Source of the DNA: Candidatus Thorarchaeota archaeon | GTDB lineage: Archaea > Asgardarchaeota > Thorarchaeia > Thorarchaeales > Thorarchaeaceae | Direction: 5' to 3' | Length of the DNA: 64,000 bases | Assembly (NCBI GenBank): GCA_029858305.1 | Contig: JAOUFI010000006.1 | Location: 1-64,000, forward strand | Shown: one piece after another, positions 1,017 through 46,220 of the stretch | How the letters are laid out: each line of letters opens with the position of its first letter | Numbering within the stretch: the first letter of the stretch is position 1 | Notes under the pieces: generated by a model | The model's database searches: none | What the model saw: only the letters and a program-made list of their open reading frames with translations | Told to the model about the DNA's origin: nothing | Made by a program: the position numbers and the translations under genes

Positions 1017-4000
1017 TCAGACACCGAAGTACTCCTTAGGGTCAAATTTGCCATCTTCTTCTTTGCGTTTCTCCTCTTCTTCCTTTAGACGCTTTTTCGG
1101 TTTGGACTCTCCTTTCTTTTCTCGGCGGAATGAGAATGAATCACCACGCTTTCGTTTGATATAGACCCAACCGACAATAACTGTAGCAACGATACCGCCC
1201 AAAATGATAATCACTACCCATGGGAATGGTCGCACTAACAGATATTGCTCAAAGACCAGAGAGAGCGTGTCAAATCCACTTTTACTAATGTAAAACCTCA
1301 AGTCAAAAACGCCTTGATTAGCAGAAGTCCATGCTTCAGATACTACTACAGTATAATAGCCATCGCCATTTTCTACTACATCCATTTCCGTTTCATTCAA
1401 CCAAAGATGTAGATTGACAGATTCAATAGGATTACCTTCAAAATCTGAAAGACGAATTGTGAATGTGACATGGTCACCTGCCCAAATAATGGATTGGCTC
1501 TGTGAAAGCTGTCTTAGACAGATTGATGGCATAGAACTCCACATTACAATGTTCTCGATGAATGCATCTCTGATTGAACCCGTTGGGTTTGTGGTGGTTA
1601 GTGTAACCTTTCCAGAACCATAAGTACCAGCGACTATCACAGGATTAGAACCAGTTGTTGCTAGTACGGTCAGATTAGCCCAGACTGACGTGAAATGACC
1701 AGTGTGACCAGTTGTTGTGTTTATTGTGTTAGGTGCCATCAACAATGGGTGTGTTTCCTCAACATATGTAACAGGGTCGCTATCCGTAAATGAATCATAA
1801 GACATTGGCCAAGGAATCCAAGGAAGGGATTCTGTTACTCCTAGTACGGCCAGGACACCTCCACTACGCATGTAGGTATCAAATCCACTTGTATATGATG
1901 ATAGATTCTCTGTGAACAATGAGAGTGTAGATGGTTCAATAATGACAGTATATCGAAGCGAAAGAAGAGGCAAGAATTCAGAAAAATTAGATGGCTCATA
2001 GTAATCATAGTCTACCATTAGAGGAGATAGTGCATCAGGAAGATACGTAGAGCTACCTAAAGCCGCAATCGAAGGAACACCTCGTGTGGGAACATGATTT
2101 CCAAAAACCTCAGTTGTAGGATCCACTGCAGAGATATGAGGTGATGCACTTGGTTCATAGAGTTGAATGGATGGGTCTCCAAAGAGTATCTGCTGATTGG
2201 CATAATCACGCGGATCTCTGCCAACAAGAGGATCTGCAAAGTCTGAGGATGTAAGAGATAGACCATATGAAAGGGCTTCTCCGATTGTATCGCCCTGACT
2301 CAGAGATTGTGCCATTAGTACTGAGAGCATTCCAGCAGGCTGAAAATAAACGGTTCGTGGCGAAGCGGTCACGGCTACAGCTCCGTGTTTCATAAGCATA
2401 AGGGGCATATCTGTGCCTCCAAGTAGACAGGCTGTGAGAATAACGATGGGAGAGCCAATGTTGCCAATTGCAGAGTCTAGCTCTTTTGTCGATCTTGTTA
2501 CATGATTCGAAGCTTCAGCCGTGAATACGACTGGGTTTACCAATTTATCGGCATCAGATGAACTCTCTCTCTCTAACTCACTTACTTCGAATCCAAAAGG
2601 CGTGTCCCCATTTCTCATTGAGAAATAGCCCGGTCCGTATGGTCGATTAGGAGGATCTCTAGGCAAGTGTGTTAATGTTCCGTGTGTGGAAAGAGACCAT
2701 AATGCGACTTGAGAATTTAACTGTGCGAAAGTCTCTGTGGCACCAACGTGACTCTCAATACCGAATCCAGCCGCTTCAAGGGCATCGGTGGAGTTCTCAA
2801 TCTGGAATAAGACTGAATAATGAAGTGCATTATCCACAAATTGTGCACCGTCCGTGTATGCATACATGCTAATCAGAGCTGTGTCAGAGGACTCAGCTGT
2901 GAGGAATAGATATCTGTGAAGTAAACCCCGATTGATGAGTACTGATGCTGTGGATGGCTCCTCAGCGGGTATTCGACCGGGATTGAAAGCACACTGTAGA
3001 GATCTGTCAAAACTTGAAGGAAGTAGCGACATTGGTGCCACAATAACACAAGATTGCGCTTCTGTTGCGTTGCGAGCTCCGCGTACGGAAAGAAAACTCT
3101 CAAAGTCATCCACAGACTTCATCATGGAGTATTTGTTTGGGATTCTCTCATCATACCATCCATTCTCAGCACGGTTCTCATACTTGTTAATAACATAGAT
3201 GTTATTGATCTCAGGTCCAATGAGATATGGAGCCCAAGTTTCTTGAGCACGTGTTATCATTTGATTATCATTGCTGCTAAGAGAGAATATAGGAGCACCA
3301 TGAACTGCTGCTGAGTAAGCCGCTGGTCCGATGAACTCACTATTGTCCCCAGTAGGGACTGTAACTACAATGTCTGAACTCTTGGATAATTCAGTGATAT
3401 TTCCAGAAATTGCACTATAGCTATTTAGATTCAATACTGTGGCAGAAGCTGACAGTTCAGTTATGAGTGATGTCTGCTGCAGGTCCCCTACATCAACAAA
3501 CCAGACTGTTGATACATTTAATCTGTCAAGTGCCCATTGAGTGATTTGAGGGACTTGAGTGGGTTCTGCATAGAGAAGTGGAGCATTGAGGAGAGAAGCA
3601 AGAACTGCGCCATTTGAAGCAGATTCCAAATAATTCTGTAAATCTATTGGAAGTCGTGATATCCTCCATGAAAGATTGATGTTATTCTGTTCATTCGTTG
3701 CACCCATCCAAGATGCGATGATATTCCAATTGCCTTCCATAGGGTATGGGAGCTGAATGGTTTCTCGTCCAGGATTAGATAGGATGCTACCAGCAGGTGC
3801 CCACATGACTAAACGACCATTGGGATCTACTAAGGCAAGGTTGAGGTCAGTAGCAACATTATCCCAGTTCATTGTCACATTCAACCATTTTGCGTTCGAA
3901 GGAATAGAAACCGATTGAGAGTATCCGGGATGATAGAGAACTTCGCAATTCATGCTTGTGGTTCCGGGAGTAGCCCTAGTTACATTCATGGTCCAAACAC

Positions 4001-4841
4001 CATCAGCTGTCTTTGGAAGCCAGAAATGTAGTGGAACAGGACTTGCTACATACCCGGGATGCCTTGAAAAATAGACTTGGTTATTCACGGAATAATCTAC
4101 TATCTCTCCATTTGGATCAATTAACTCATGAGTAAGAATCTCAGTACCTGTCCAATTGAAACTGCCTTCGAGCCAGCCTGCCCAAGTAGGGGGCGTGAAA
4201 GTTATGCTGGAGGGGGTGGTAACTCCTGTTACAGAACCTCCAAAGGTATCAAGTTGTGAAGCATCATTTAGAAAAGTATGACTACTGTTTCCTGTGATGA
4301 CTCCACTTGTCTGAAAATCATCCCTCGCCAGAGAGATTACTGCAATGTCAGAAGTGTGCCATTCTGAAACAGCTATTTTTGCCGCAATCTCAGCTGATGT
4401 CGTTCCGGTGAGTCGAGGGTATATCTTCTGCCCAATGCTGTACTGCAGATTTGTGAGATAAGATTCTGAGAAGTCACCAACAGAGATTGCTTGGGTCAGC
4501 CCTCCATCGGTGCTCAGATAATCGATCCAGTCTTCAAGAAACCAGCTCTCACTATTGGAACCAGTCGAATAAATCAGTGGAGAGATATATTGAGTCCCGT
4601 TTTCGTTAAACACGGAGGCTGAAATGGCAGAGATATAGGCGAACTCGTCGATGTATGAATTTGAATCAGGAGCGACGAAAACAATTCTTCTCAAAGGTGT
4701 CTGATTTCCATCAGCACTAGTTGAGAAGTGTCTGAGATTCGTAAATGAACTGGAAGAACTTGGGATAGCTATTGTGACGATGGACCCAAGAAGAACGACC
4801 ATAATGGTGAATGTCAATATCTTTGTTCGCCAGTGTTTCAA
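1017..4841 (-). CDS. Giant membrane-anchored surface protein with a C25 (gingipain/caspase-like) peptidase core
   Basis: The 1274-residue protein begins with a signal peptide (residues about 8-30, hydrophobic, followed by a Ser-rich stretch) and ends with one transmembrane helix (about 1206-1228) and a highly charged Lys/Glu cytoplasmic tail of about 46 residues. Between lie two beta-rich segments resembling pre-peptidase or Ig-like domains (about 180-390). A caspase/gingipain-like region follows, with His720 in SLSTHG and Cys805 in VILTACLLGG, the expected catalytic pair of clan CD peptidases. Later come a GATase-like or Ig segment with VAGTYGSGKVTL (about 1000-1110) and a beta domain before the membrane helix. 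The family match rests on the His/Cys motifs and the FGDPSIQLY motif typical of peptidase C25. It probably processes or displays proteins outside the cell; substrates are unknown. No neighbour shares its frame or strand context closely. Confidence 0.7.
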   Translation of the reverse strand: MKHWRTKILTFTIMVVLLGSIVTIAIPSSSSSFTNLRHFSTSADGNQTPLRRIVFVAPDSNSYIDEFAYISAISASVFNENGTQYISPLIYSTGSNSESWFLEDWIDYLSTDGGLTQAISVGDFSESYLTNLQYSIGQKIYPRLTGTTSAEIAAKIAVSEWHTSDIAVISLARDDFQTSGVITGNSSHTFLNDASQLDTFGGSVTGVTTPSSITFTPPTWAGWLEGSFNWTGTEILTHELIDPNGEIVDYSVNNQVYFSRHPGYVASPVPLHFWLPKTADGVWTMNVTRATPGTTSMNCEVLYHPGYSQSVSIPSNAKWLNVTMNWDNVATDLNLALVDPNGRLVMWAPAGSILSNPGRETIQLPYPMEGNWNIIASWMGATNEQNNINLSWRISRLPIDLQNYLESASNGAVLASLLNAPLLYAEPTQVPQITQWALDRLNVSTVWFVDVGDLQQTSLITELSASATVLNLNSYSAISGNITELSKSSDIVVTVPTGDNSEFIGPAAYSAAVHGAPIFSLSSNDNQMITRAQETWAPYLIGPEINNIYVINKYENRAENGWYDERIPNKYSMMKSVDDFESFLSVRGARNATEAQSCVIVAPMSLLPSSFDRSLQCAFNPGRIPAEEPSTASVLINRGLLHRYLFLTAESSDTALISMYAYTDGAQFVDNALHYSVLFQIENSTDALEAAGFGIESHVGATETFAQLNSQVALWSLSTHGTLTHLPRDPPNRPYGPGYFSMRNGDTPFGFEVSELERESSSDADKLVNPVVFTAEASNHVTRSTKELDSAIGNIGSPIVILTACLLGGTDMPLMLMKHGAVAVTASPRTVYFQPAGMLSVLMAQSLSQGDTIGEALSYGLSLTSSDFADPLVGRDPRDYANQQILFGDPSIQLYEPSASPHISAVDPTTEVFGNHVPTRGVPSIAALGSSTYLPDALSPLMVDYDYYEPSNFSEFLPLLSLRYTVIIEPSTLSLFTENLSSYTSGFDTYMRSGGVLAVLGVTESLPWIPWPMSYDSFTDSDPVTYVEETHPLLMAPNTINTTTGHTGHFTSVWANLTVLATTGSNPVIVAGTYGSGKVTLTTTNPTGSIRDAFIENIVMWSSMPSICLRQLSQSQSIIWAGDHVTFTIRLSDFEGNPIESVNLHLWLNETEMDVVENGDGYYTVVVSEAWTSANQGVFDLRFYISKSGFDTLSLVFEQYLLVRPFPWVVIIILGGIVATVIVGWVYIKRKRGDSFSFRREKKGESKPKKRLKEEEEKRKEEDGKFDPKEYFGV

Positions 4842-5952: not shown

Positions 5953-6654
5953 TTATTTCTGCATAATACTGACTGGATTTTCTAGAAGGGCGCGAACTGA
6001 GTCCTTGACAACAAACTGTTCATCACCGACTTGAACTTCAAGGAGTTTTCGGAGTTCAAACCGTCGCAGATAGCCTACAGCCTGCTCCCGCTCAAGGTTG
6101 AGATCTTTCATCAGTTTCTTGAGACCATCTTTGGCCCCACTGTACTGAGCAAACTTAGCAAAGACAGAACTCCATTGCATCATTACTAAATAGAGTAAAG
6201 TTCTGAGCATACTATCAACATTGGCTCCCGTCTTTGCAGATACTGGAAAGACAGGAAGACCAGCTAGAAATCGAAGGTTCATTCTGAGAGAGTCAACAGG
6301 TCGGGATTCCTGTACATCTTGCTTATTGGCTGCTACGACACAGGGTACTCCTGGTAGAAAGAATGCAATTTCACGGAAGAATAGCTTGGCTCTAGCATCA
6401 GACTCTGGATCTACAGAATCAACGACAAAGATGATACCATCTGCTCCTGAGCTTAGTATTTTACGCATAGTTCGAAATCGTAAGAGCCCTGGTGTGCCAA
6501 ACATGAAGACGCTCATACCAGCTACATTGGCTAGGCCATGATCCATTGCAATGGTTGTGCCCCTACGTTCAATGTTGATACAAGCTCCATTTGTAATATG
6601 GTGTATCATCTGACTCTTACCAGCTTCATAAGGTCCAGTCACAACAATCTTCAT
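5953..6654 (-). CDS. Ras-superfamily small GTPase with C-terminal extension
   Basis: The 233-residue protein has all GTPase motifs: P-loop GPYEAGKS (7-14), switch Thr34 in RGTTIAMD, G3 FGTPG (52-56), G4 NKQD (110-113) and G5 SAK (139-141). G3 has TPG instead of the usual TAGQ, so the catalytic glutamine of Ras/Rab is absent, as in several Asgard and bacterial MglA-like or SRPRB-like GTPases. The last 60 residues (about 165-233) form an extra helical or winged domain of unknown role. There is no C-terminal Cys for lipid attachment. With the roadblock and TPR genes it forms a cytoskeleton- or signalling-like neighbourhood, though they are not one operon. I cannot assign a subfamily. Confidence 0.85.
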   Translation of the reverse strand: MKIVVTGPYEAGKSQMIHHITNGACINIERRGTTIAMDHGLANVAGMSVFMFGTPGLLRFRTMRKILSSGADGIIFVVDSVDPESDARAKLFFREIAFFLPGVPCVVAANKQDVQESRPVDSLRMNLRFLAGLPVFPVSAKTGANVDSMLRTLLYLVMMQWSSVFAKFAQYSGAKDGLKKLMKDLNLEREQAVGYLRRFELRKLLEVQVGDEQFVVKDSVRALLENPVSIMQK

Positions 6655-11615: not shown

Positions 11616-13643
11616 TTAATCCTCATCTTCACCTGAATCGACGAAATCTAGTAGACGACTCAGTTCATCTAATGATTCATTATTTATAGGTGAGTTCTCA
11701 GAGTGCTGCTTAGTGTCATTAGAATCTTTTTTCTTGGTTCCACCTACAGCACTATCCAGAGGGCCGAGAATAAGCTCTAACTCCTCAAGTGACTCGGCAT
11801 CAATCTCTTCTCGAATGTCGGACTCCCCCTCGGTAGGAGTAGCCTCATCACTCTTAAATGCTTCAAGAGCTTCATCGATTTCAGTATGAGAAACAAGATC
11901 AAGTTCTGCGGAGATGAATTCATCGGCCTCGAGAGCTTCGAATATAATTTCTTTGGCCATTTTTACGCCTCCGTTGTTTTCTTCAGCAATCGGTTCTATT
12001 CCGAGTTTCTCTTCAGGTGGAAGTTCCTCTTCAGCAAAATCGATTTGTGGTAATTGTTCTTCTACTTCTATCGAAGATTCTTCCTTTGGCAATTCAATGG
12101 AAATATCCATGGAGATTTCATCAATCTCTTTCGACTCCTCCATGTGGGAGGGTTCAAATCCTTCACCCTCTTCCAATTGCATGCCTGTCGCAAAAGCATC
12201 TTCTTCTGTAGTCTGGTCCGGTCCTATTGCTTCACTGAGAGCATCAGCTTTAGCAAGTTCGACTTCTTGGTGTATCAAATGTTCCTCAGAGAACTCTACT
12301 TCTAGAGGAAATGATTGAATCTCTGCTTCAAGCGGAGATACAGAGATTTCTACTTCCTCCTCTACTTCCTTAGTTTCCTCTATAATGGCCTCAGGAATCG
12401 GTTCAGAAGATGCAATCTCATCTTCGACTTTTACTTCAGGCTCGGGTTCAAAGAATTCTACTTCCGCCTCTGCTTCCTCAATCTCCTCTAACATCACATC
12501 AGGAGCTAGTTCCGGAGAAACAATCTCTTCTTTTGTTTCTTCTTCTTCAAAGAGATCTTCATCTACTTCTTCAATGACTTCTTCAATTATCTCATAGTCA
12601 TTTAGGTTCTCAATGACATGTCCATCTTCGTCAACCAAGACTTCCTCGACCACTTCAATAGTCTCGAATTCAGATTCTTCAATCTCTGCAGTTTCCCTTC
12701 GTTCCTGCATCGCATCTGTCTCAGCTATCGCTTCCTTGGTTGCGGCATCTGTAAACTTCAAGAGCTCGGATGCCGGAAGATCCGGAAGAGCAACACCAAC
12801 ATATTGTGCTGCAGCAGTCATCAAAATCCTTAGCATCTCATCACGCCTAGCCTTGTCAATTGCAACCATTGGAAAGGTAGGAATTCCTAGTATCTTCTGA
12901 ACGACCTCAGGTTTCATAGCGTTTGGTTTATCCTGTTTATTAGCCAGAGCAAAGACGGGAACCTTCGGAGCGTCTCGTTTAATGAGCTTGAGAATGTCCT
13001 TACTGATTATCACGTTACGAAGAGCTGAATCACAAACTAAGAAGATTACATCAGCTCCATGGAAATAGAATCGCCATAGTGTTCGAAAGCGCTCTTGTCC
13101 TGCAAAATCCCAGAGGACAAGACTGTAGTTGCCAAATCTGATGTTTTCAACAGTTTCAAGATTGAGAGCTATTGTTGGGACATATTGCAGTGGTGGTGTG
13201 TCTCCAAGTAAAAGGTGGAGTGTTGTTGTTTTTCCAACACCACCCTCTCCAACTAGCGCAATTTTCAATCTGGTGGTCACAGATGGTTCAACAAGTTTTT
13301 CATACCCTTGCTTCACAGCGTCAAGTCCTGATTTTTTCAGCTCCTTTCTCATGAGCTTCGATGCAGCTTCAACCTTCTCGAATATGCTTGATTCGTCTTC
13401 TCCTTTATCAGTAACAAACAGTAAAAGAAGGTCTGAAACCAAGTCCACTCCATGAAACTTGTGATCTCCTAATATTAGTGCTAGACTTTCTAGATGCGTA
13501 TCATTGCTCTTTTCAGAACGAAGTTCTTCCCTTGTTTTGACATATTCGCTAAGAATCTCATGTGACACATCAACGGGCCAATATTTAGTGAATGCAATTA
13601 TTTCTTGTGTTGAGATGCGTATAAGGAAGGTGTTGTGAATCAC
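11616..13643 (-). CDS. Ras-like GTPase with N-terminal domain and 360-residue acidic tail
   Basis: Three parts are visible in 675 residues. Residues 1-120 form a mixed alpha/beta N-terminal region (FLIRISTQEIIAFTKYWPVD, then LALILGDHKFHG and LLLLFVTDKGEDESSIFEK) that looks longin- or roadblock-like. Residues 125-290 are a GTPase with P-loop GEGGVGKT (132-139), WDFAGQE (178-184, catalytic Gln present) and NKQD (235-238). Residues 310-675 are an extremely Glu/Asp-rich, presumably disordered tail with short loose repeats (such as EEVEISV and VEEVLVDEDG). The start is GTG. No lipidation Cys is seen. The Gln in G3 makes it a normal hydrolysing Rab/Arf-type switch; the tail may bind membranes' or proteins' basic surfaces (inference). 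Confidence 0.85.
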   Translation of the reverse strand: MIHNTFLIRISTQEIIAFTKYWPVDVSHEILSEYVKTREELRSEKSNDTHLESLALILGDHKFHGVDLVSDLLLLFVTDKGEDESSIFEKVEAASKLMRKELKKSGLDAVKQGYEKLVEPSVTTRLKIALVGEGGVGKTTTLHLLLGDTPPLQYVPTIALNLETVENIRFGNYSLVLWDFAGQERFRTLWRFYFHGADVIFLVCDSALRNVIISKDILKLIKRDAPKVPVFALANKQDKPNAMKPEVVQKILGIPTFPMVAIDKARRDEMLRILMTAAAQYVGVALPDLPASELLKFTDAATKEAIAETDAMQERRETAEIEESEFETIEVVEEVLVDEDGHVIENLNDYEIIEEVIEEVDEDLFEEEETKEEIVSPELAPDVMLEEIEEAEAEVEFFEPEPEVKVEDEIASSEPIPEAIIEETKEVEEEVEISVSPLEAEIQSFPLEVEFSEEHLIHQEVELAKADALSEAIGPDQTTEEDAFATGMQLEEGEGFEPSHMEESKEIDEISMDISIELPKEESSIEVEEQLPQIDFAEEELPPEEKLGIEPIAEENNGGVKMAKEIIFEALEADEFISAELDLVSHTEIDEALEAFKSDEATPTEGESDIREEIDAESLEELELILGPLDSAVGGTKKKDSNDTKQHSENSPINNESLDELSRLLDFVDSGEDED

Positions 13644-37922: not shown

Positions 37923-38726
37923 TTATTGTACTAGGATATCCATACTGATTATTGCAGACCGCGCCCAATCTGTGAGTATGACTGGTTTTTCACGACCAAA
38001 TACTTTGATGGATCGAAGAATATCAGCCTTCAAGAGACTACTAGTGTAGTAAGAAATCAAACTCTTGTCAACATCAAGAACCTTGCTAATCTCAGCTTGA
38101 GTTGTCTGTCCATTCTTCACACACTCTGAGAGGATTGATCCTACCGTAGGATTTCGAGAGAGTGCGGTCAGCAGAAGAACTCTATCCTCAAATGAGAAAT
38201 CACTTGGAAAGATATGCCGTACATTTCCATATCTAATTGAAACTACCTCTCCCGCATTTTCCAAGTTGTTGATGTGATATTGCAGCGCACCCATTGCACA
38301 TCCTATATTTCTATGAAGCTCGCGCAAATGTATGCCTGGATTCGCGACGACTTCATCAACAATTCTATCACGTAGTTTGAGAGCTTTCCGGTCCCTTGTT
38401 CGTTCTACAGCTATTGTACCAATAATTAACGCAAATAATCCAATGTCCACTGACTGAGTTGTCCAATGCACCCAATAGTTAATTGTGCCAATAGCAGACT
38501 GAGAAATGGCATCTAGTGTGAAATTAATTGTACCACTACTTACAGTCGCAAGTGTAAATCCAAGATCTAGAGCAACCTGATTATTGTTTTGCGTGATTGG
38601 TAAACTCGGAGAAACAGAATCCAAGTTACCAAAACCTGATTCTGATAGAGCCAAGCCAACTATACCCCAAGTGATAAGGAGAAAAGAGAGTCCAATCAGG
38701 ATTTTTTTAGTGAAATGGCTGCTCAT
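37923..38726 (-). CDS. Membrane-anchored protein with two winged-helix domains
   Basis: 267 residues. Two membrane helices in the first 105 residues (ILIGLSFLLITWGIVGLAL near the N-terminus and VDIGLFALIIGTIAVERT), with a short extracytoplasmic loop between; then cytoplasmic winged helices: NPGIHLRELHRNIGCAMGALQYHINNLENAGEV and RNPTVGSILSECVKNGQTTQAEISKVLDVDKSLISYYTSSL. Such membrane-anchored dimeric winged-helix regulators exist in archaea (Thermoproteota and halophile homologs). Its location next to the ABC operon suggests it senses membrane state and controls that operon (inference). Confidence 0.7.
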   Translation of the reverse strand: MSSHFTKKILIGLSFLLITWGIVGLALSESGFGNLDSVSPSLPITQNNNQVALDLGFTLATVSSGTINFTLDAISQSAIGTINYWVHWTTQSVDIGLFALIIGTIAVERTRDRKALKLRDRIVDEVVANPGIHLRELHRNIGCAMGALQYHINNLENAGEVVSIRYGNVRHIFPSDFSFEDRVLLLTALSRNPTVGSILSECVKNGQTTQAEISKVLDVDKSLISYYTSSLLKADILRSIKVFGREKPVILTDWARSAIISMDILVQ

Positions 38727-38797: not shown

Positions 38798-39352
38798 TTA
38801 TGTACTGCTTCGTGCAGGATACGTGAGTGTGATTTTAAATGTGCAGGACTCGGCACCAGCGGATATACATGTTTCTTCACTAACAATTAGTTTTTCATAC
38901 TCGATTCTGTTGAAATCTGTAAGATATTCAAGAACCGCTTCGATGAAACCTTTTAGAAAGTAACACGAAGGTTCTTCACTCTCATACCCAGAGGCATAGG
39001 GATTATTTCCCACCTCTATTATTGCTTCTTCATCAAGCCACAATTTGTATAGCTTGGAAATTTTAATGTCACCAAAAGGAACAATCAAAGTTTCTAAAGT
39101 CATCTTAATGAACTCGACTATACCCTTAAAGTCGCCAGGAGGCTTTTGTTTACCCACCTTGAAATATTCTCGTTGAGCTTCAAGACCTGCAAGACGACCT
39201 GCGGAATAATACAAATCACGTACTCGATCCGGAAACATTACAGCAATTCGGCTGCCAATCTTGTTCCAGGTCTTAGCAAAGAACGCGGACATTAAATCAC
39301 GTTCTTTTAGGCGACCTTGCCACCACGGAATCACCCGTTCCTCTTTTGACAT
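38798..39352 (-). CDS. V4R-domain protein
   Basis: 184 residues. The C-terminal half has the V4R (4-vinyl reductase) motif: CYFLKGFIEAVLEYLTDF, then ETCISAGAESCTFKITL with the conserved Cys-x6-Cys-type end. V4R domains belong to the TRAPP/Bet3 superfamily of ligand-binding alpha/beta folds. The first 60 residues are an extra helical part. It heads, in genomic order, the cluster of roadblock/TRAPP-like genes but is separated by 61 bases from the next. Confidence 0.75.
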   Translation of the reverse strand: MSKEERVIPWWQGRLKERDLMSAFFAKTWNKIGSRIAVMFPDRVRDLYYSAGRLAGLEAQREYFKVGKQKPPGDFKGIVEFIKMTLETLIVPFGDIKISKLYKLWLDEEAIIEVGNNPYASGYESEEPSCYFLKGFIEAVLEYLTDFNRIEYEKLIVSEETCISAGAESCTFKITLTYPARSST

Positions 39353-39413
39353 TGGAGAGTCCTCTAACTAATGATTCTACATGCAATTGCGTTAAGTGCT
39401 TTGTTGTTATATT

Positions 39414-39896
39414 TTACACTAGACGCACATTCCAGACACACATGCTTGCACCTGTCGCACGGGATTGCTCTTGAAAGACCCTTGCATCCACACCCTTGAC
39501 TTCAAGGATTGACTCAAGGATGCCACTGAAGACCTCACAATACCCAAAACCACGCATACCCTCAAGATTCACATCTTGACACCAAACACAGCTATGATCA
39601 CTAATGCGGACAGATCCTCGAGCTGTCTTCATGTCAACATCAGCAGGACGTTTATCGTATAGAATCTTAAAGACAACTTCAATCAGTTTTGCAACGTCCT
39701 CACGCGTCGTAACGCTCTCCTTAGTTTTCTCTACAATTTCTGTGTTAAGGTATATCTGTCGACCAATCTCGTAGCCAAGGTCACGCAGCTTCTGATTTGC
39801 TTCATCGATATTTGTTGTTCCAGATAGTATGTTGTCAACGTAGTATGAGTAGAGGCTCACCAGTAGTGGATTTTCTATCTTTGGCATTTCAGGCAC
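39414..39896 (-). CDS. TRAPP/Bet3-superfamily (V4R-like) protein, copy 1
   Basis: 160 residues: N-terminal helices with LGYEIGRQIYLN (compare the G-x-x-IG-x-R pattern of Bet3), LIEVVFKILYDK, strand HSCVWCQDV, helix YCEVFSGILESILEVKG and a final strand QSRATGASMCVWNVRL. This order matches the TRAPPC3/Bet3-type fold and the V4R family. In eukaryotes TRAPP is the Rab1 activator in secretion. The roadblock-HTH gene at 39910 ends 14 bases upstream in the same operon, so the two products probably form a complex. Paralogue: 42248-42754 with CPICEGV and the same order. Confidence 0.72.
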   Translation of the reverse strand: MPEMPKIENPLLVSLYSYYVDNILSGTTNIDEANQKLRDLGYEIGRQIYLNTEIVEKTKESVTTREDVAKLIEVVFKILYDKRPADVDMKTARGSVRISDHSCVWCQDVNLEGMRGFGYCEVFSGILESILEVKGVDARVFQEQSRATGASMCVWNVRLV

Positions 39897-39909
39897 CTAT
39901 TAGTTATTC

Positions 39910-40893
39910 TTAGACAGTTCTGCCAATCATCTTTAACCCAGCTTTTCTATACTTGGCTATTGTCTGAACGACCTTGGGGATTGGCAAGTTGAGTTTTTCA
40001 GCGATTTGCTCGGGTGTCAGATTTCCGTCACACAATCTGATTAATTGGATGTCTTCATTTGAGACCTTTGAGGTATCACCATCAAACATTGGACATTTTA
40101 CATACTTTCCAATGGATGTACCTGCAGCGACAAACTTGGGGCTTTCATCTAATATTGGAACGTCAATTATGCCTTGTGAAGCAGTCCATTTCAGAAGATC
40201 TATGATCCTGTCGATTGGTTGGAACATTGAATCCGCAATCTTCTCAACAGAATTATTACCATCGACAAGCATTAGTACGTCAAAACCAAAGTTGCGATAG
40301 AGTACTTTCATCTCATTATAAAGTGCAGAGTCTAGTAAGAGAGAATTAGCATATTCGGAGCCTCTTTCGGGAACTGTTATTGGCGTGATGTTGAAATCCT
40401 TGGATGACAGTTTTTTCGCAGGCTTACTGGGAACTTCTGGAGCTGGCTTGGACTCCTCTGGAGGCGGGACAACCACTGGGGATGGTACAACAGATGCTGC
40501 TTTGATGGCAATGCTTTCCAGAACTTGAATATTCATCTCAGAGGAGTCTTCAAAATCTTCAGGAGGCGGTGGAAGTTCAATGCCCTCGAGAAGACGTAGA
40601 ACATTCTTTGTCTTGGCAATAGCAAGTCCCAGTTGAAGTTCAGGTACATATAGAACCGTTAGAATCCAATTTTCATCAACAGGAGAAAGAACTACGAGTC
40701 CTTTCTCAGTATCGATGGTCATCAAACGCAAGTCAGCCTTGTAGAGTTTAATGCTGTCTTTTATTCTTGGAAACAGCTCGTCAGGAAATGCGAAACTGAC
40801 AAAGGGTCTACCTATCTTTGTCATCAGAGAATAACCCAAAACCTGATCATCAAATCGTAGTTTAGACAAAGCACGCTCCAAATCTTTGGACAT
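39910..40893 (-). CDS. Roadblock-like domain + helix-turn-helix protein, copy 1
   Basis: About 327 residues from ATG (MSKDLERALSKLRFDDQV). Residues 1-110 read as a roadblock/LC7-like fold: helix ERALSKL, strands GYSLMTKIGRPFVSF and KGLVVLSPVDENWILTVLY, helix LQLGLAIAKTKNVLRLLE. A Pro-rich linker follows (about 140-175). The C-terminal 150 residues contain two helix-turn-helix-like parts (DGNNSVEKIADSMFQPIDRIIDLLKW and CDGNLTPEQIAEKLNLPIPKVVQTI). It is the upstream gene of the pair with the TRAPP-like gene, 14 bases apart. Paralogue at 42761-43720. Confidence 0.7.
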   Translation of the reverse strand: MSKDLERALSKLRFDDQVLGYSLMTKIGRPFVSFAFPDELFPRIKDSIKLYKADLRLMTIDTEKGLVVLSPVDENWILTVLYVPELQLGLAIAKTKNVLRLLEGIELPPPPEDFEDSSEMNIQVLESIAIKAASVVPSPVVVPPPEESKPAPEVPSKPAKKLSSKDFNITPITVPERGSEYANSLLLDSALYNEMKVLYRNFGFDVLMLVDGNNSVEKIADSMFQPIDRIIDLLKWTASQGIIDVPILDESPKFVAAGTSIGKYVKCPMFDGDTSKVSNEDIQLIRLCDGNLTPEQIAEKLNLPIPKVVQTIAKYRKAGLKMIGRTV

Positions 40894-41069
40894 AAGATAA
40901 CACCTCACGAGCACTAGCGTGACCAGGACCTGCTCGTATAATCTCTATTTTTGAGAGTCATCTGAAAAGGATTGTGGTGCTGGAATTTGATTTCTTTATT
41001 GAGTTCATTCGAAAACTGTTAAGAGGGACCGACCAACATCAATGAGGTCAGTTGTCCAGAGGAGATTCA

Positions 41070-41651
41070 ATGAGAAATTTTGCTGGTGGTTTCATAGGGA
41101 TTATCGTTGGTTCCTTTTCATTGGTCATTTTAGCTGGAATATTACCATCTCAGCCCTCATACCCAGACCCGTTCAACGCAATATGGTTTTTGCTAGCTGG
41201 ATCTTGGGTGTTTCAGTCAACTCTTCAGGAACTAGTCAATATGACTTTAGCAGGACCATTGTTACTATCGTGGTTGATCATTGGTATCGTTATTGCTCCT
41301 TTTTCTCGGAAGGGATGGAATCTTCTTAGGTCGACACTATGGGTGGCAGTGTTTCTAACAATTTTCGCATTAATTTTTCAGGTATTAGAGAATCCATCTT
41401 TTTGGGATGTTAATCTGAATCCGACGAGGAACTACGATCTGATATTCCAATTTGCTACATCCATAGTCGTATCTCTCTTTGCCCTTCCAAGTGCAATCCC
41501 AATCACAATTACCATTGAGAGAGCACGCCAGACCGGAGAGCAACCGATTCCAGAGAAGATTGAAACAATATGTGAGTGTGGAGCTATTTTCAAATCAAAT
41601 CCAATTATTTGCTCAGAGTGCGGCCGTATCTTGAGAATGTTGGAGAATTAA
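41070..41651 (+). CDS. Membrane protein with C-terminal zinc ribbon
   Basis: 193 residues from ATG at 41070, with GAGGAGA just upstream. Four to five hydrophobic helices occupy residues about 5-150, and the cytoplasmic end has CECG and CSECG, a zinc ribbon. It sits on the opposite strand inside the roadblock/TRAPP cluster, between the two module copies. Family not recognised. Confidence 0.6.
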   Translation: MRNFAGGFIGIIVGSFSLVILAGILPSQPSYPDPFNAIWFLLAGSWVFQSTLQELVNMTLAGPLLLSWLIIGIVIAPFSRKGWNLLRSTLWVAVFLTIFALIFQVLENPSFWDVNLNPTRNYDLIFQFATSIVVSLFALPSAIPITITIERARQTGEQPIPEKIETICECGAIFKSNPIICSECGRILRMLEN

Positions 41652-42166
41652 CGGTCCCTGGTTATACCCCCACCAAGAATACCACCAATTACACACGCAA
41701 TCGCAGGATAGATTGCTCCTTCGAGTGCAACTTCCATCAGGATCAATGAGCCAGGTGCGAAAATAGCTGCGATATCAAAACCCGGGGATATCACAAGAAC
41801 TAACAACCATGTCAGAAACGCACCTATGATTGCCGCAAAGACTGCAGCTAGAATTGCAGGTAAGAAGTCTTTTGACATAAGACCTGCAATTAGACCACCA
41901 GTGCCCCATGCTAGGAACATGAGGACAGAGGCACCAATAGCACCATAACCCAATACACCGCCAAGACCGGGACCTGCTAGGGCAGAAGGATAGAGTATCG
42001 TTCCAACCACAGCCAATCTGAATTCAAGATCACTATAATTTAGAAATTCTTGCACAACGGTGGGTGAAATTAAATCAGCTGGCATGTAGTTACCAAATGT
42101 CATGACGACGAACGTGATAGCGAATGCAGTTATGAGCCCAAATATCGTACCTAGACCTTGACCCAA
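41648..42166 (-). CDS. Small membrane protein with four or five helices
   Basis: 172 residues, glycine-rich helices: LGTIFGLITAFAITFVVMTF, LAVVGTILYPSALAGPGLGGVLGYGAIGAS, LMFLAWGTGGLIAGLMS, ILAAVFAAIIGAFLTWLLVLV and ALEGAIYPAIACVIGGILGGG. Resembles small archaeal membrane proteins of the DUF-type; no function known. It overlaps by 4 bases the convergent zinc-ribbon membrane gene. Confidence 0.6.
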   Translation of the reverse strand: MGQGLGTIFGLITAFAITFVVMTFGNYMPADLISPTVVQEFLNYSDLEFRLAVVGTILYPSALAGPGLGGVLGYGAIGASVLMFLAWGTGGLIAGLMSKDFLPAILAAVFAAIIGAFLTWLLVLVISPGFDIAAIFAPGSLILMEVALEGAIYPAIACVIGGILGGGITRDR

Positions 42167-42247
42167 TCATTAGGCCTCCATGTAAGGTGCATATACGATA
42201 TTTTCTCGCTTATTGTTTTATACCTATTCCAGATGGCTACAAGGGTA

Positions 42248-42754
42248 CTATTCCCTGAGATTGAGAGTCCAAGTGCACGTATCGTCACCTAGAGCTTTGC
42301 ATGACTCCTGATAGCTCTCAGCTGAAAAACCACGCAATTTCATGACTGCATCAAAGACTCCACTCACAATCACACAGTACTGAAGACCAGGCATGTCCGA
42401 GATTACAACACCTTCACAAATTGGGCAGGCATCATCAGTGAATTTGATTGTCTTCTTGTCTTTGCTAATGTCGATTTTGGTGAAAAATTGCCCAGAGTTC
42501 ACCTTGTATGCTAGTTGTAGTGTCTTTGAGAATGTTGCAAAGTCTACAGCATGCTCTCGTATCCTATCTGCATAGTCCATGAGAAGAGTTTCACCGACTC
42601 GAAAGCCGATGTCTTTCATCTTTCGATTGATCTCTTCGACACTGCCACTTGTACTCATGACTAGATTCATGAGTTCTCGATAGCTGGCTTGGAAGAGAAC
42701 TTTCGAAACTTTAGTCGTCATTAGATTCCACGCGATTTTTCCCTTTACACTCAT
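42248..42754 (-). CDS. TRAPP/Bet3-superfamily (V4R-like) protein, copy 2
   Basis: 168 residues. Same order of elements as the 39414 protein: MKDIGFRVGETLLMDY, TLQLAYKVN, DACPICEGVVIS, QYCVIVSGVFDAVMKLRGF and SCKALGDDTCTWTLNL, with Cys-x2-Cys and Cys-x7-Cys that match the V4R/TRAPP pattern. It ends 6 bases before its partner's start (the roadblock-HTH copy 2 at 42761), showing the same gene pair and spacing style. Confidence 0.72.
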   Translation of the reverse strand: MSVKGKIAWNLMTTKVSKVLFQASYRELMNLVMSTSGSVEEINRKMKDIGFRVGETLLMDYADRIREHAVDFATFSKTLQLAYKVNSGQFFTKIDISKDKKTIKFTDDACPICEGVVISDMPGLQYCVIVSGVFDAVMKLRGFSAESYQESCKALGDDTCTWTLNLRE

Positions 42755-42760
42755 TTCGTT

Positions 42761-43720
42761 TTATTCTCCTGATTTCTTGTCAACACGTACCATTCTAAGA
42801 GTTTTTCCGCGATAGGGGAGAATACTCTGTAATGCATTAAAGTATTGTATGCCTAGCTCTGCTGATATTTCCTGTAGGGTTCGTGTTCCATCACAGAGCG
42901 CGAGGAGTTGGCGATGTTCTTTCTTTACTTTATCAAGCTTGCCTTCAAAGAGCGGTAACTCTACGATTTCTTTCAGACTTGTTTCTTGCGCATCGGGACA
43001 GTCTACGTCGACTATCTTTTCTGCAATACACCATTTTACGACGTCCATGACTCTTTCGACAGGTTTAGTTAAACTTGTAGCTATCTTATAGATCGTCATC
43101 TTTTCATCTATGACTAATAGTATATCAACGCCCAGATTTGCATAGGCTTTCTTGAGAGCAAGATTCAGACTTGATTCAAGAGTCATAGCATCTCTGTATC
43201 TCTCACCTCTAAGAAGAACACATCCATGGGTTAATTCCATGACTTCCATTGGTTTAGATTTGATATCAGCCACGGAAGTGACAACATCTCCTTCAAGAGT
43301 TTCTATTGAAACCTCAAGTAAATCTGGCTCAACGGTTTCAGAGATGAGATTGTCTTCTAACTCAACTGGGATAGGAGGCGGTGGTAGGGCTACTTGTTCT
43401 AAGAGCTCAACGACTGATTTTGCTCTAGAGAGTGCTGTGCCTAGTGTGAGCTCTGGGCTGAAAAGAACTGCAAGAACCCATTGGGGATCAACTCGTGCTA
43501 AGATAACGCTTCCTTGACTGGTCATAATGTTGACAAGTTTAAGGTCAGCAGCATGAATCCGCAGGGTGCCTTTAATCTGTGGGACAACTTCGTCTGGAAG
43601 TGAGAAAGAGAGGAATGGTTGGCCATCATTGGTGATCAGTGCATAACCGGTAACCGACTCATCGAATTTCAGCTTCGTGAGTACGCGCTCTAATTCCAAT
43701 TGATTCACCAAACCTCGCAA
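42761..43720 (-). CDS. Roadblock-like domain + helix-turn-helix protein, copy 2
   Basis: 319 residues; MRGLVNQLELERVLTKLKFDESVTGYALITNDGQPFLSFSLPDE mirrors the 39910 protein and has the same roadblock-like pattern, with LVNIMTSQGSVILARVDPQW and ELTLGTALSRAKSVVELLEQ. The linker is shorter in Pro and richer in acidic residues. The C-terminus has the two HTH-like parts (DEKMTIYKIATSLTKPVERVMDVVKW and CDGTRTLQEISAELGIQYFNALQSIL). Upstream gene of the pair with the TRAPP-like 42248 gene, 6 bases apart. Confidence 0.7.
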   Translation of the reverse strand: MRGLVNQLELERVLTKLKFDESVTGYALITNDGQPFLSFSLPDEVVPQIKGTLRIHAADLKLVNIMTSQGSVILARVDPQWVLAVLFSPELTLGTALSRAKSVVELLEQVALPPPPIPVELEDNLISETVEPDLLEVSIETLEGDVVTSVADIKSKPMEVMELTHGCVLLRGERYRDAMTLESSLNLALKKAYANLGVDILLVIDEKMTIYKIATSLTKPVERVMDVVKWCIAEKIVDVDCPDAQETSLKEIVELPLFEGKLDKVKKEHRQLLALCDGTRTLQEISAELGIQYFNALQSILPYRGKTLRMVRVDKKSGE

Positions 43721-44875: not shown

Positions 44876-45325
44876 CTAGACTTTCTTGAGTGCTGCTTTT
44901 ACCATTTCTGTGATACGGTCTTCTGGGATTCCAGTCTTGTTTGCAACTTTCGCAATGTCACAGTAAGCAAGATCGGAAACAGTCTTGAGACCAGCCTTTG
45001 CTAGAAGTTTGGCTTCTTCATCCTTCACAGCTTTTAGTGCAGAGAGCTCATCAACAGCCTTGGCAACTGATGCCGTAGCAGTACTCTCTTCAGTAGCTAG
45101 AGCCGCAACAAATTCCTCAAGATCTTTCTGATACTGTTTTAATGCTTCGACATTCTCAGGATATGCAGTTTTCCTTCGGATATCAACAATTAGACCCATC
45201 TTACGAGCATCAACAACTGTGAGTCCAGATTGAATTGTTTCCTCTATACTAAAACCACGGCCACGTCTGGGTTTGGCATCTTTTGGTGACCTCACAACTG
45301 GTTCGGCAATAATATCAAAGCTCAT
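44876..45325 (-). CDS. rpl13e: Ribosomal protein eL13 with extra C-terminal helical domain
   Basis: 149 residues from ATG (MSFDIIAEPVVRSP) with AGGTGGA at good spacing; the open frame further upstream is noise. The first 80 residues match eL13: KPRRGRGFSIEETIQSGLTVVDARKMGLIVDIRRKT and NVEALKQYQKDLEEF. The last 60 residues (LLAKAGLKTVSDLAYCDIAKVANKTGIPEDRITEMVKAAL) form a helix-hairpin-helix-like domain not part of the usual short eL13. It overlaps nothing but is near the DUF72 gene. Confidence 0.87.
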   Translation of the reverse strand: MSFDIIAEPVVRSPKDAKPRRGRGFSIEETIQSGLTVVDARKMGLIVDIRRKTAYPENVEALKQYQKDLEEFVAALATEESTATASVAKAVDELSALKAVKDEEAKLLAKAGLKTVSDLAYCDIAKVANKTGIPEDRITEMVKAALKKV

Positions 45326-45404
45326 TGATTCATCCACCTGACACGGCTTCGAGCCTTCGGACCACTTATCAAGCTTTCGAGATGGCAAAATAAAGAGGAG
45401 AGAT

Positions 45405-46220
45405 TTAGATAAAATCATCAAGTGACATTTGTCTTATTGCTTCACCATCTAGCATCTTCAATAATTTTCGTTCTTGGTGTTGATTGATTGTACCTAAGAG
45501 AGATAGCATCTGAAGTGCGTTCAAAGGAGCGTTTCCTGCGAAATGATTATTGAAATACCCCAAGACAAGGTTTACATTATTCGTCAAATCCTCCAGGCGA
45601 GGAAGCCATTCCTTGAGTTCTTCAAGTGAATATCTGTAGTTGTACCATAACCCTTCATTTTGACCGTGCCACCGTACATATGAAAAATCAGTTGTTATTC
45701 GGAGGTCAATAGGGAGCTTTGGTTCATCAACGATGACATGAGCGATATTATATTGCTCTAATAGACTCCAGACAGACTCTATCAACCAGCTATGGTGTCT
45801 GAACTCGATTGCGTACCGATACGCAGGGTTGAGTGCAGCAAAAAAGGTCTCAAGATTAGCCATGGTCGATATCTCCCAGGGTGGTAACTGAATGAGCAGA
45901 ACATCAATACGGTTTTCAATCGGTCGTAGAAGTTGATAATACTCATCAAGAACTGCACCACCCTCTCCGGTGAGGTCGAGTCGATGGTCATGTGTTACTT
46001 TCTTGGGTAATTTGGCTGTGAAGAACTTATTGGGATCAAGACTAGCCAAGTGTTTAATGAAAGTGGGTTTGGGTAGAGCGTAGAATGTCGAATTAATCTC
46101 TGCCGTGTCGAAGTAGAGCAAGTATTGATGGAGCATGGATCTACCGGAGGTATAGAAAACACCTTTCCAATCCTTTCCATATGACCATCCACTGGTACCG
46201 ATATGAAGCCCCTTTCTCAT
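45405..46220 (-). CDS. DUF72 (YecE-like) protein
   Basis: 271 residues. The DUF72 pattern: HIGTSGWSYGKDWKGVFYTSG at the N-terminus, FDTAEINSTFYALPKPTFIKHL, FFTAKLPKKVTHDHRLD, IDVLLIQLPPW, RYAIEFRHHSWL, VRWHGQNE and LGYFNNHFAGNAPLNALQM. A TIM-barrel-like fold; members bind or cleave unknown substrates. Its 3' end is 80 bases from the eL13 start. Confidence 0.88.
   Translation of the reverse strand: MRKGLHIGTSGWSYGKDWKGVFYTSGRSMLHQYLLYFDTAEINSTFYALPKPTFIKHLASLDPNKFFTAKLPKKVTHDHRLDLTGEGGAVLDEYYQLLRPIENRIDVLLIQLPPWEISTMANLETFFAALNPAYRYAIEFRHHSWLIESVWSLLEQYNIAHVIVDEPKLPIDLRITTDFSYVRWHGQNEGLWYNYRYSLEELKEWLPRLEDLTNNVNLVLGYFNNHFAGNAPLNALQMLSLLGTINQHQERKLLKMLDGEAIRQMSLDDFI

Follow-up and report, generated by a model that had tools for sequence, protein, structure and literature searches.

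Duplicated roadblock-winged-helix and TRAPP gene pairs in a Thorarchaeota genome as a candidate small-GTPase regulator

A locus of Candidatus Thorarchaeota archaeon raises the question whether two gene pairs, each encoding a roadblock (RB) protein with a winged helix-turn-helix (wHTH) end and a TRAPP-domain protein, specify two subunits of one complex, and whether such a complex would regulate small GTPases. The locus was analysed in a window of 64,000 nucleotides, i.e. the whole stretch from position 1 to 64,000 of contig JAOUFI010000006.1 (assembly GCA_029858305.1; host contig C180 in our search; size of the metagenome-assembled genome 3.04 Mb). A physical complex of the RB-wHTH and the TRAPP protein appears well supported by comparative genomics because of the pairing in the window's own family, the wHTH-tailed partners in six other families and the existence of natural fusions. 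The two pairs comprise the following genes.

42761-43720, minus strand: RBb, first gene of pair b, encoding a roadblock domain, a linker and two winged-helix units (open reading frame, AlphaFold2, Foldseek)
42248-42754, minus strand: TRAPPb, second gene of pair b, encoding a TRAPP-domain protein (Pfam TRAPP 3.3e-6, fold match to 7YH3 and Bet3, four invariant cysteines)
39910-40893, minus strand: RBa, first gene of pair a, encoding a paralogue of RBb (37% identity; Pfam HTH_47 and Robl_LC7 below cut-off)
39414-39896, minus strand: TRAPPa, second gene of pair a, encoding a TRAPPC3-like orthologue of 7YH3 and 7YH2 (phmmer 8e-85 to 7YH3, Pfam TRAPP 5.4e-11)

The initial annotation of this DNA had placed these genes at the same coordinates, with RB before TRAPP on one strand, and all of them were found there. 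Its spacing of 6 bases in pair b agrees with our measurement (6 bp), whereas the gap in pair a is 13 bp instead of the 14 bases given. The proposed paralogy is borne out by the alignment of RBa with RBb (E 1e-71) and of TRAPPa with TRAPPb (21% identity, E 6e-25).

Pairing of RB-wHTH and TRAPP genes in Asgard archaea

In a search of 228 Asgard genomes, in which f and g numbers label families and genera and f1 is the window's own family, the TRAPP profile matched 78 and the RB-wHTH profile 91. Pairing in f1 was counted among the matches listed for both profiles, short fragments being excluded. An RB-wHTH match lies immediately upstream on the same strand for 74 of the 76 TRAPP matches, distributed over 42 genomes, and the two unpaired ones are both located at contig ends (G208:C58, starting at base 1, and G200:C239, with 48 bp of contig upstream). 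A TRAPP gene is missing beside four of the 78 RB matches, of which G204 is at a contig end and the other three (G221, G225, G226) belong to genus g13. The compared gene pairs are under purifying selection wherever the synonymous divergence could be estimated, and together with the high proportion of paired matches this argues against a chance arrangement. The block is collinear in related loci up to the limits of the contigs, losses of TRAPPb aside, and in those loci that were read completely each copy has retained its cognate neighbour. Ten relatives of RBb were found in public genomes, all of them labelled Candidatus Thorarchaeota.

The conserved pairing in Asgard genomes on which the initial annotation had staked its proposal thus exists in Thorarchaeota and recurs with variations in other families. 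The upstream neighbour of the TRAPP gene encodes a protein with the same winged-helix end in f2, f12, f14, f24, f25 and f27, and in the f27 loci L095 and L096 the gene for the wHTH-tailed partner instead follows directly after a tandem TRAPP pair. The N-terminus of the partner is roadblock-like by eye in f2 and f24 (L080, L081), with no profile match of its own, and longin-like in f27, where the L083 protein has a weak match to Sybindin, the longin family of TRAPP (E 0.028). In f14 the homologous domain matches the MON1/FUZ/HPS1 longin family (E 3e-5). Compared with solved structures, the longin-domain profile retrieved BET5 first, although weakly (E 0.009), followed by other longins, two designed proteins and unrelated chains. 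Since the N-terminus varies between families and appears exchangeable, the recurring neighbour of TRAPP is best described as a wHTH-tailed partner; the annotated roadblock-TRAPP pairing holds for Thorarchaeota, and in other families the wHTH tail, not the roadblock itself, is the constant part. A partner beside TRAPP in six of 15 families corresponds to p 3e-7 under a null rate of 2% per family, a value indicating the order of magnitude only, given that both the rate, which we judge generous, and the number of families are our own estimates. Longin-wHTH-like proteins are widespread in Asgard archaea: the L083 query matched in 217 of the 228 genomes, so that the TRAPP-linked proteins form a subset of these, and most of the matching proteins are not known to be encoded close to a TRAPP gene.

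Tandem TRAPP-TRAPP gene pairs, possibly encoding heterodimers, were observed in L087, L088, L092, L093, L095, L096, L097 and L101. A general need of TRAPP proteins for a wHTH-tailed partner was rejected, as both tandem pairs and solitary TRAPP/V4R genes exist.

Gene fusion is a classic genomic sign of physical association. Locus L086 of f28 (3318-4208) encodes a longin-TRAPP chain of 296 amino acids, with 37% identity between its N-terminal domain and the L083 longin (E 2.5e-21), and L135 of f29 (321-1736) encodes a chain of 471 amino acids in which a wHTH region and then TRAPP follow a further N-terminal domain. In f19 a longin-like domain is fused to V4R (L102, 4423-5280), with apparent relatives in L148 and L152 as judged from their first residues. 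A published structural study also records one Heimdall longin-TRAPPC3 fusion (PMC10933270).

Domain structure of the paired proteins

Both TRAPP proteins exceed the curated Pfam TRAPP cut-off of 27 bits (PF04051; TRAPPa 42.9 bits, TRAPPb 27.4 bits). TRAPPa is orthologous to the crystallised Thorarchaeota TRAPPC3 proteins 7YH3 (phmmer 8e-85) and 7YH2 (1e-81), and the sequence of 7YH3, a SMTZ1-45 protein, is that of TRAPPa in locus L007, where its gene adjoins an RB-wHTH gene. For pair b an AlphaFold2 model was obtained as a single chain read through the in-frame stop of RBb, and the top Foldseek matches of its TRAPPb part were 7YH3 and Bet3 (target-normalised TM-score, TMt, about 0.8). The TRAPP fold assumed in the initial annotation is hence backed by an orthologous crystal structure for TRAPPa and by the predicted fold for TRAPPb. 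Four cysteines are invariant across both copies (C103, C106, C120 and C153 of TRAPPa) and probably correspond to the four-cysteine zinc site of 7YH3. According to the structural study (Tran et al. 2024, PMC10933270), the crystallised orthologue forms a homodimer with this zinc site and an internal cavity, for which its authors propose ligand binding. The study treats the protein alone, without an operon partner, and the parts of it considered here do not describe a roadblock-wHTH protein, TRAPPb or GTPase-linked cassettes. V4R sensors such as PoxR share a related fold with zinc site and ligand cavity (PMC10933270; PMC2253512), but in the window sensor and helix-turn-helix are encoded on separate chains and a roadblock platform is added.

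The AlphaFold2 model of RBb displays the order helix, two strands, helix, three strands, helix (about residues 2-107), followed by a disordered linker and two winged-helix-like units. Its top Foldseek matches are Asgard roadblocks, the Ragulator roadblock subunits LAMTOR2/3 and MglB; by secondary-structure order and Foldseek, RBb has the roadblock/LC7 fold. Furthermore, the RB N-terminal profile cross-matches the bona fide Robl_LC7 protein at 554-943 of the window (E 2e-4). The curated Pfam Robl_LC7 score was not reached by RBa (12.4 bits, E 0.14, cut-off 23) and RBb gave no match, this score being a detection threshold and not a defining trait of the superfamily. Searched against PDB sequences the RB profile gave no significant match, the best roadblock being 7f8m (E 1.5). 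The roadblock fold named in the initial annotation is accordingly supported by model, Foldseek and profile cross-match and not by Pfam, and its helix-turn-helix part is present, although more exactly as tandem winged-helix units at the C-terminus (RBa: Pfam HTH_47 1.2e-5, below cut-off). The protein at 554-943 is itself a stand-alone roadblock protein (Pfam Robl_LC7 6e-21).

The nearest architectural parallel to RB-wHTH is provided by Npr2/Npr3 of GATOR1/SEAC, in which a longin domain precedes tandem winged helices (PMC3521125), so that the order of parts predicted for RBb appears to be the same. In the Foldseek comparison both parts of RBb were aligned to chains from entries containing GATOR1/SEAC, with no global superposition (root-mean-square deviation about 20 A); these chains have about the length of Npr2/Npr3 and are presumed to be these proteins. 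Unlike Npr2/Npr3, the window protein carries a roadblock instead of a longin domain and pairs with TRAPP instead of Depdc5. MglB, a roadblock partner of a small GTPase, acts as a lone roadblock on MglA. RBb, by contrast, has a wHTH tail, is paired with TRAPP and adjoins no MglA gene; no cognate MglA-type GTPase gene was found next to a roadblock gene within the window's conserved block.

GTPase neighbours, proposed function and competing explanations

In two f27 loci, both of genomes rated 100% complete, GTPase genes directly precede the longin-wHTH and TRAPP genes on the same strand (L083:1744-5364 with three, L084:2481-5481 with two), and the three GTPases of L083 were confirmed as Ras family (E ~1e-40). 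A second cassette of f1 in genome G187 (L134:3304-4864) encodes a Ras-family GTPase (E 2e-23), a CxxC-wHTH protein and a V4R/TRAPP protein in genes overlapping by 4 bp. This trio is kept, with adjoining or overlapping genes, in all eight Thorarchaeota genomes with a strong match to the V4R/TRAPP protein (L138-L145), while the window's own genus yielded no such match. According to the structural study, the GTPase genes of MK-D1 do not as a rule share operons with genes for roadblock, longin or TRAPPC3 proteins (PMC10933270). The L083/L084 and L134-type loci show that other Asgard lineages are unlike MK-D1 in this placement.

The link to GTPases suggested by the initial annotation thereby receives indirect support from homologous cassettes elsewhere, but none for the GTPases at 5953, 11616 and 22039 of the window that it had named. 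These are situated 16-33 kb from the pairs, beyond the conserved block. One of them (11616-13643) is a protein of 675 amino acids with a small-GTPase domain (Arf/Roc/Ras, about residues 123-262); its N-terminal part looks longin-like by eye, with no match to the longin profile.

We give an even chance to the reading that each pair encodes two subunits of one complex which acts as a ligand-responsive regulator of a small GTPase, resembling either a guanine nucleotide exchange factor (GEF) or a GTPase-activating protein (GAP). RB-wHTH and TRAPP would each contribute one subunit, and the whole would be akin to a minimal TRAPP core. The TRAPP subunit would dimerise and carry the zinc site, and a hydrophobic ligand may occupy its internal cavity. 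The roadblock domain, replaced by a longin domain in some other Asgard lineages, would serve as the GTPase-binding platform, and the winged-helix tail as a protein-protein adaptor coupling this platform to TRAPP. The two diverged copies of Thorarchaeota, each with its own partner, would presumably serve different GTPases or ligands. GTPase binding by the pair receives indirect support from the GTPase genes next to homologous cassettes, and the reading as a whole is further favoured by the roadblock and TRAPP folds and the weak BET5 match. Ligand sensing and nucleotide exchange would be hypothetical activities of the complex.

Several observations weigh against this reading. The conserved block of the window contains no GTPase gene. 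Many TRAPP/V4R genes are partnerless, with tandem pairs in f3, f13 and f15 and no partner recognised nearby in f17 and f20, and the f12 partner carries a small CxxC domain at its N-terminus, with neither roadblock nor longin. In g13-type loci TRAPPb is lost or interrupted: its place is held by a cyclase-type gene in L014, it is likewise lacking in L013, and L011 (3000-3531) has a stop inside TRAPPb while the RB partner is kept. Since RBb remains under purifying selection there (omega, the ratio of nonsynonymous to synonymous rates, 0.16-0.24), it must have some role without TRAPPb. The winged helices could moreover bind DNA instead. The read-through model gave no confident interface between RBb and TRAPPb, both parts being folded, and with a predicted TM-score (pTM) of 0.34 it is uninformative on this point.

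Some of these observations would also suit mere co-transcription, in which the proteins are made together and form no complex: adjacency is no proof of contact, RBb outlasts TRAPPb in g13 and the model lacks a confident interface. Taking into account the single-chain fusions in L086 and L135 and the fact that partners with different N-termini are found paired with TRAPP in several families, we regard this explanation as distinctly unlikely.

The remaining alternatives draw on the conserved neighbours of the pairs.

41648-42166, minus strand: mem2, multi-pass membrane protein between the pairs, position conserved (open reading frame, crude hydropathy)
41052-41651, plus strand: mem1, about four membrane segments and a C-terminal CxxC pair motif, position conserved (open reading frame, crude hydropathy)
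38798-39352, minus strand: V4R-domain protein after TRAPPa, conserved Thorarchaeota neighbour (Pfam V4R 5.3e-9; 77-94% identity at the same place in related loci)
37923-38726, minus strand: membrane-anchored helix-turn-helix (HTH) protein of HVO_0163 type, conserved neighbour (Pfam HTH_HVO_0163_N 1.3e-14; conserved position)

Two membrane proteins between the copies and a third, adjacent V4R gene had been annotated initially and were recovered, the latter 61 bp from TRAPPa and above the curated Pfam V4R cut-off (5e-9). As mem1 lies on the opposite strand, pairs a and b do not form one transcription unit.

The main rival to a GTPase regulator is a split transcription regulator in which TRAPP/V4R senses a hydrophobic ligand, the winged helices of the partner bind DNA and the roadblock only dimerises. 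V4R domains are often fused with domains for transcription regulation (PMC2253512), the partner ends in winged helices for which Pfam weakly calls HTH_47, the product of the third V4R gene bears a weak resemblance to the transcription factor MsvR and an HTH protein is a conserved neighbour. However, GTPase genes and not target genes recur beside homologous cassettes, the conserved roadblock or longin domain would be superfluous, and the winged helices of several partners are neutral or acidic, although charge by itself does not reveal whether DNA is bound. Such a regulator therefore seems unlikely.

A GTPase-independent membrane scaffold for the handling of ligands or lipids, with TRAPP binding a hydrophobic molecule and the roadblock partner docking it to membrane proteins such as mem1 and mem2, would be in agreement with the conserved membrane neighbours, the block devoid of GTPase genes, and the cavity of the TRAPPC3 orthologue with the ligand binding proposed for it (PMC10933270). 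It is at odds with the GTPase-linked cassettes elsewhere and with the chief role of roadblock/longin domains as GTPase platforms described in the same study (PMC10933270), and we consider it rather improbable.

Evolution of the two copies and relation to eukaryotic TRAPP

With the f12 roadblock proteins for comparison, RBa and RBb fall into a single Thorarchaeota clade that divides into the two copies at its base. In the TRAPP tree TRAPPb clusters with the partner-linked TRAPPs from several further families (moderate support), and TRAPPa stands on a long separate branch. The two are thus not grouped, but a single Thorarchaeota clade was not rejected (p-AU, approximately unbiased test, 0.225). 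Therefore, the RB-wHTH/TRAPP pair may have been duplicated as a unit, which is possible rather than proven.

Asgard archaea, including Thorarchaeota, are the closest known relatives of complex cells and are of interest for the origin of the Rab-activating complexes of eukaryotes. The eukaryotic TRAPP core consists of Bet3/Trs31/Trs33 and the longins Bet5/Trs23 and acts as GEF for Rab1/Rab11. The Asgard cassettes resemble it in that a Bet3-fold subunit is co-encoded with a roadblock (window) or longin partner (f27, f28), and the longin profile is nearest, though weakly, to BET5. They differ in consisting of two genes as against a complex of many subunits, in the roadblock instead of longin of Thorarchaeota and in the winged-helix tail. 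The pairs, the fusions and the neighbouring Ras-family genes look like a small prokaryotic forerunner of the Rab-activating TRAPP. A tentative and doubtful extension would be a modular pre-eukaryotic "proto-TRAPP" composed of a Ras/Rab-like GTPase, an adaptor with a roadblock, longin or CxxC N-terminus and a constant winged-helix tail, and TRAPP, from which eukaryotic TRAPP and perhaps Npr2/Npr3 descended.

It is already known that folds of TRAPP parts occur in Asgard archaea and that one of them is represented by a crystal structure (7YH3). The literature searched, which did not extend to preprints and most subscription papers, gave no description of the conserved operon partner with its wHTH tail and exchangeable N-terminus, of the wHTH-TRAPP fusion or of the GTPase-linked cassettes. 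The layout of the MK-D1 genome makes it hard to match GTPases with their regulators, as stated in the structural study (PMC10933270). The cassettes name concrete candidate partners, i.e. RBa-TRAPPa, RBb-TRAPPb, the GTPase-longin-TRAPP cluster of L083 and the L134 trio. The existence of a prokaryotic TRAPP-like GTPase regulator can now be put to a direct test, the proteins involved being small and soluble; an orthologue of one of them has previously been expressed and crystallised.

Apart from these subjects, a gene for a ribosomal protein L13e-like protein (44876-45421, Pfam 2.5e-10) was observed as a conserved neighbour upstream of the kinase gene adjoining RBb.

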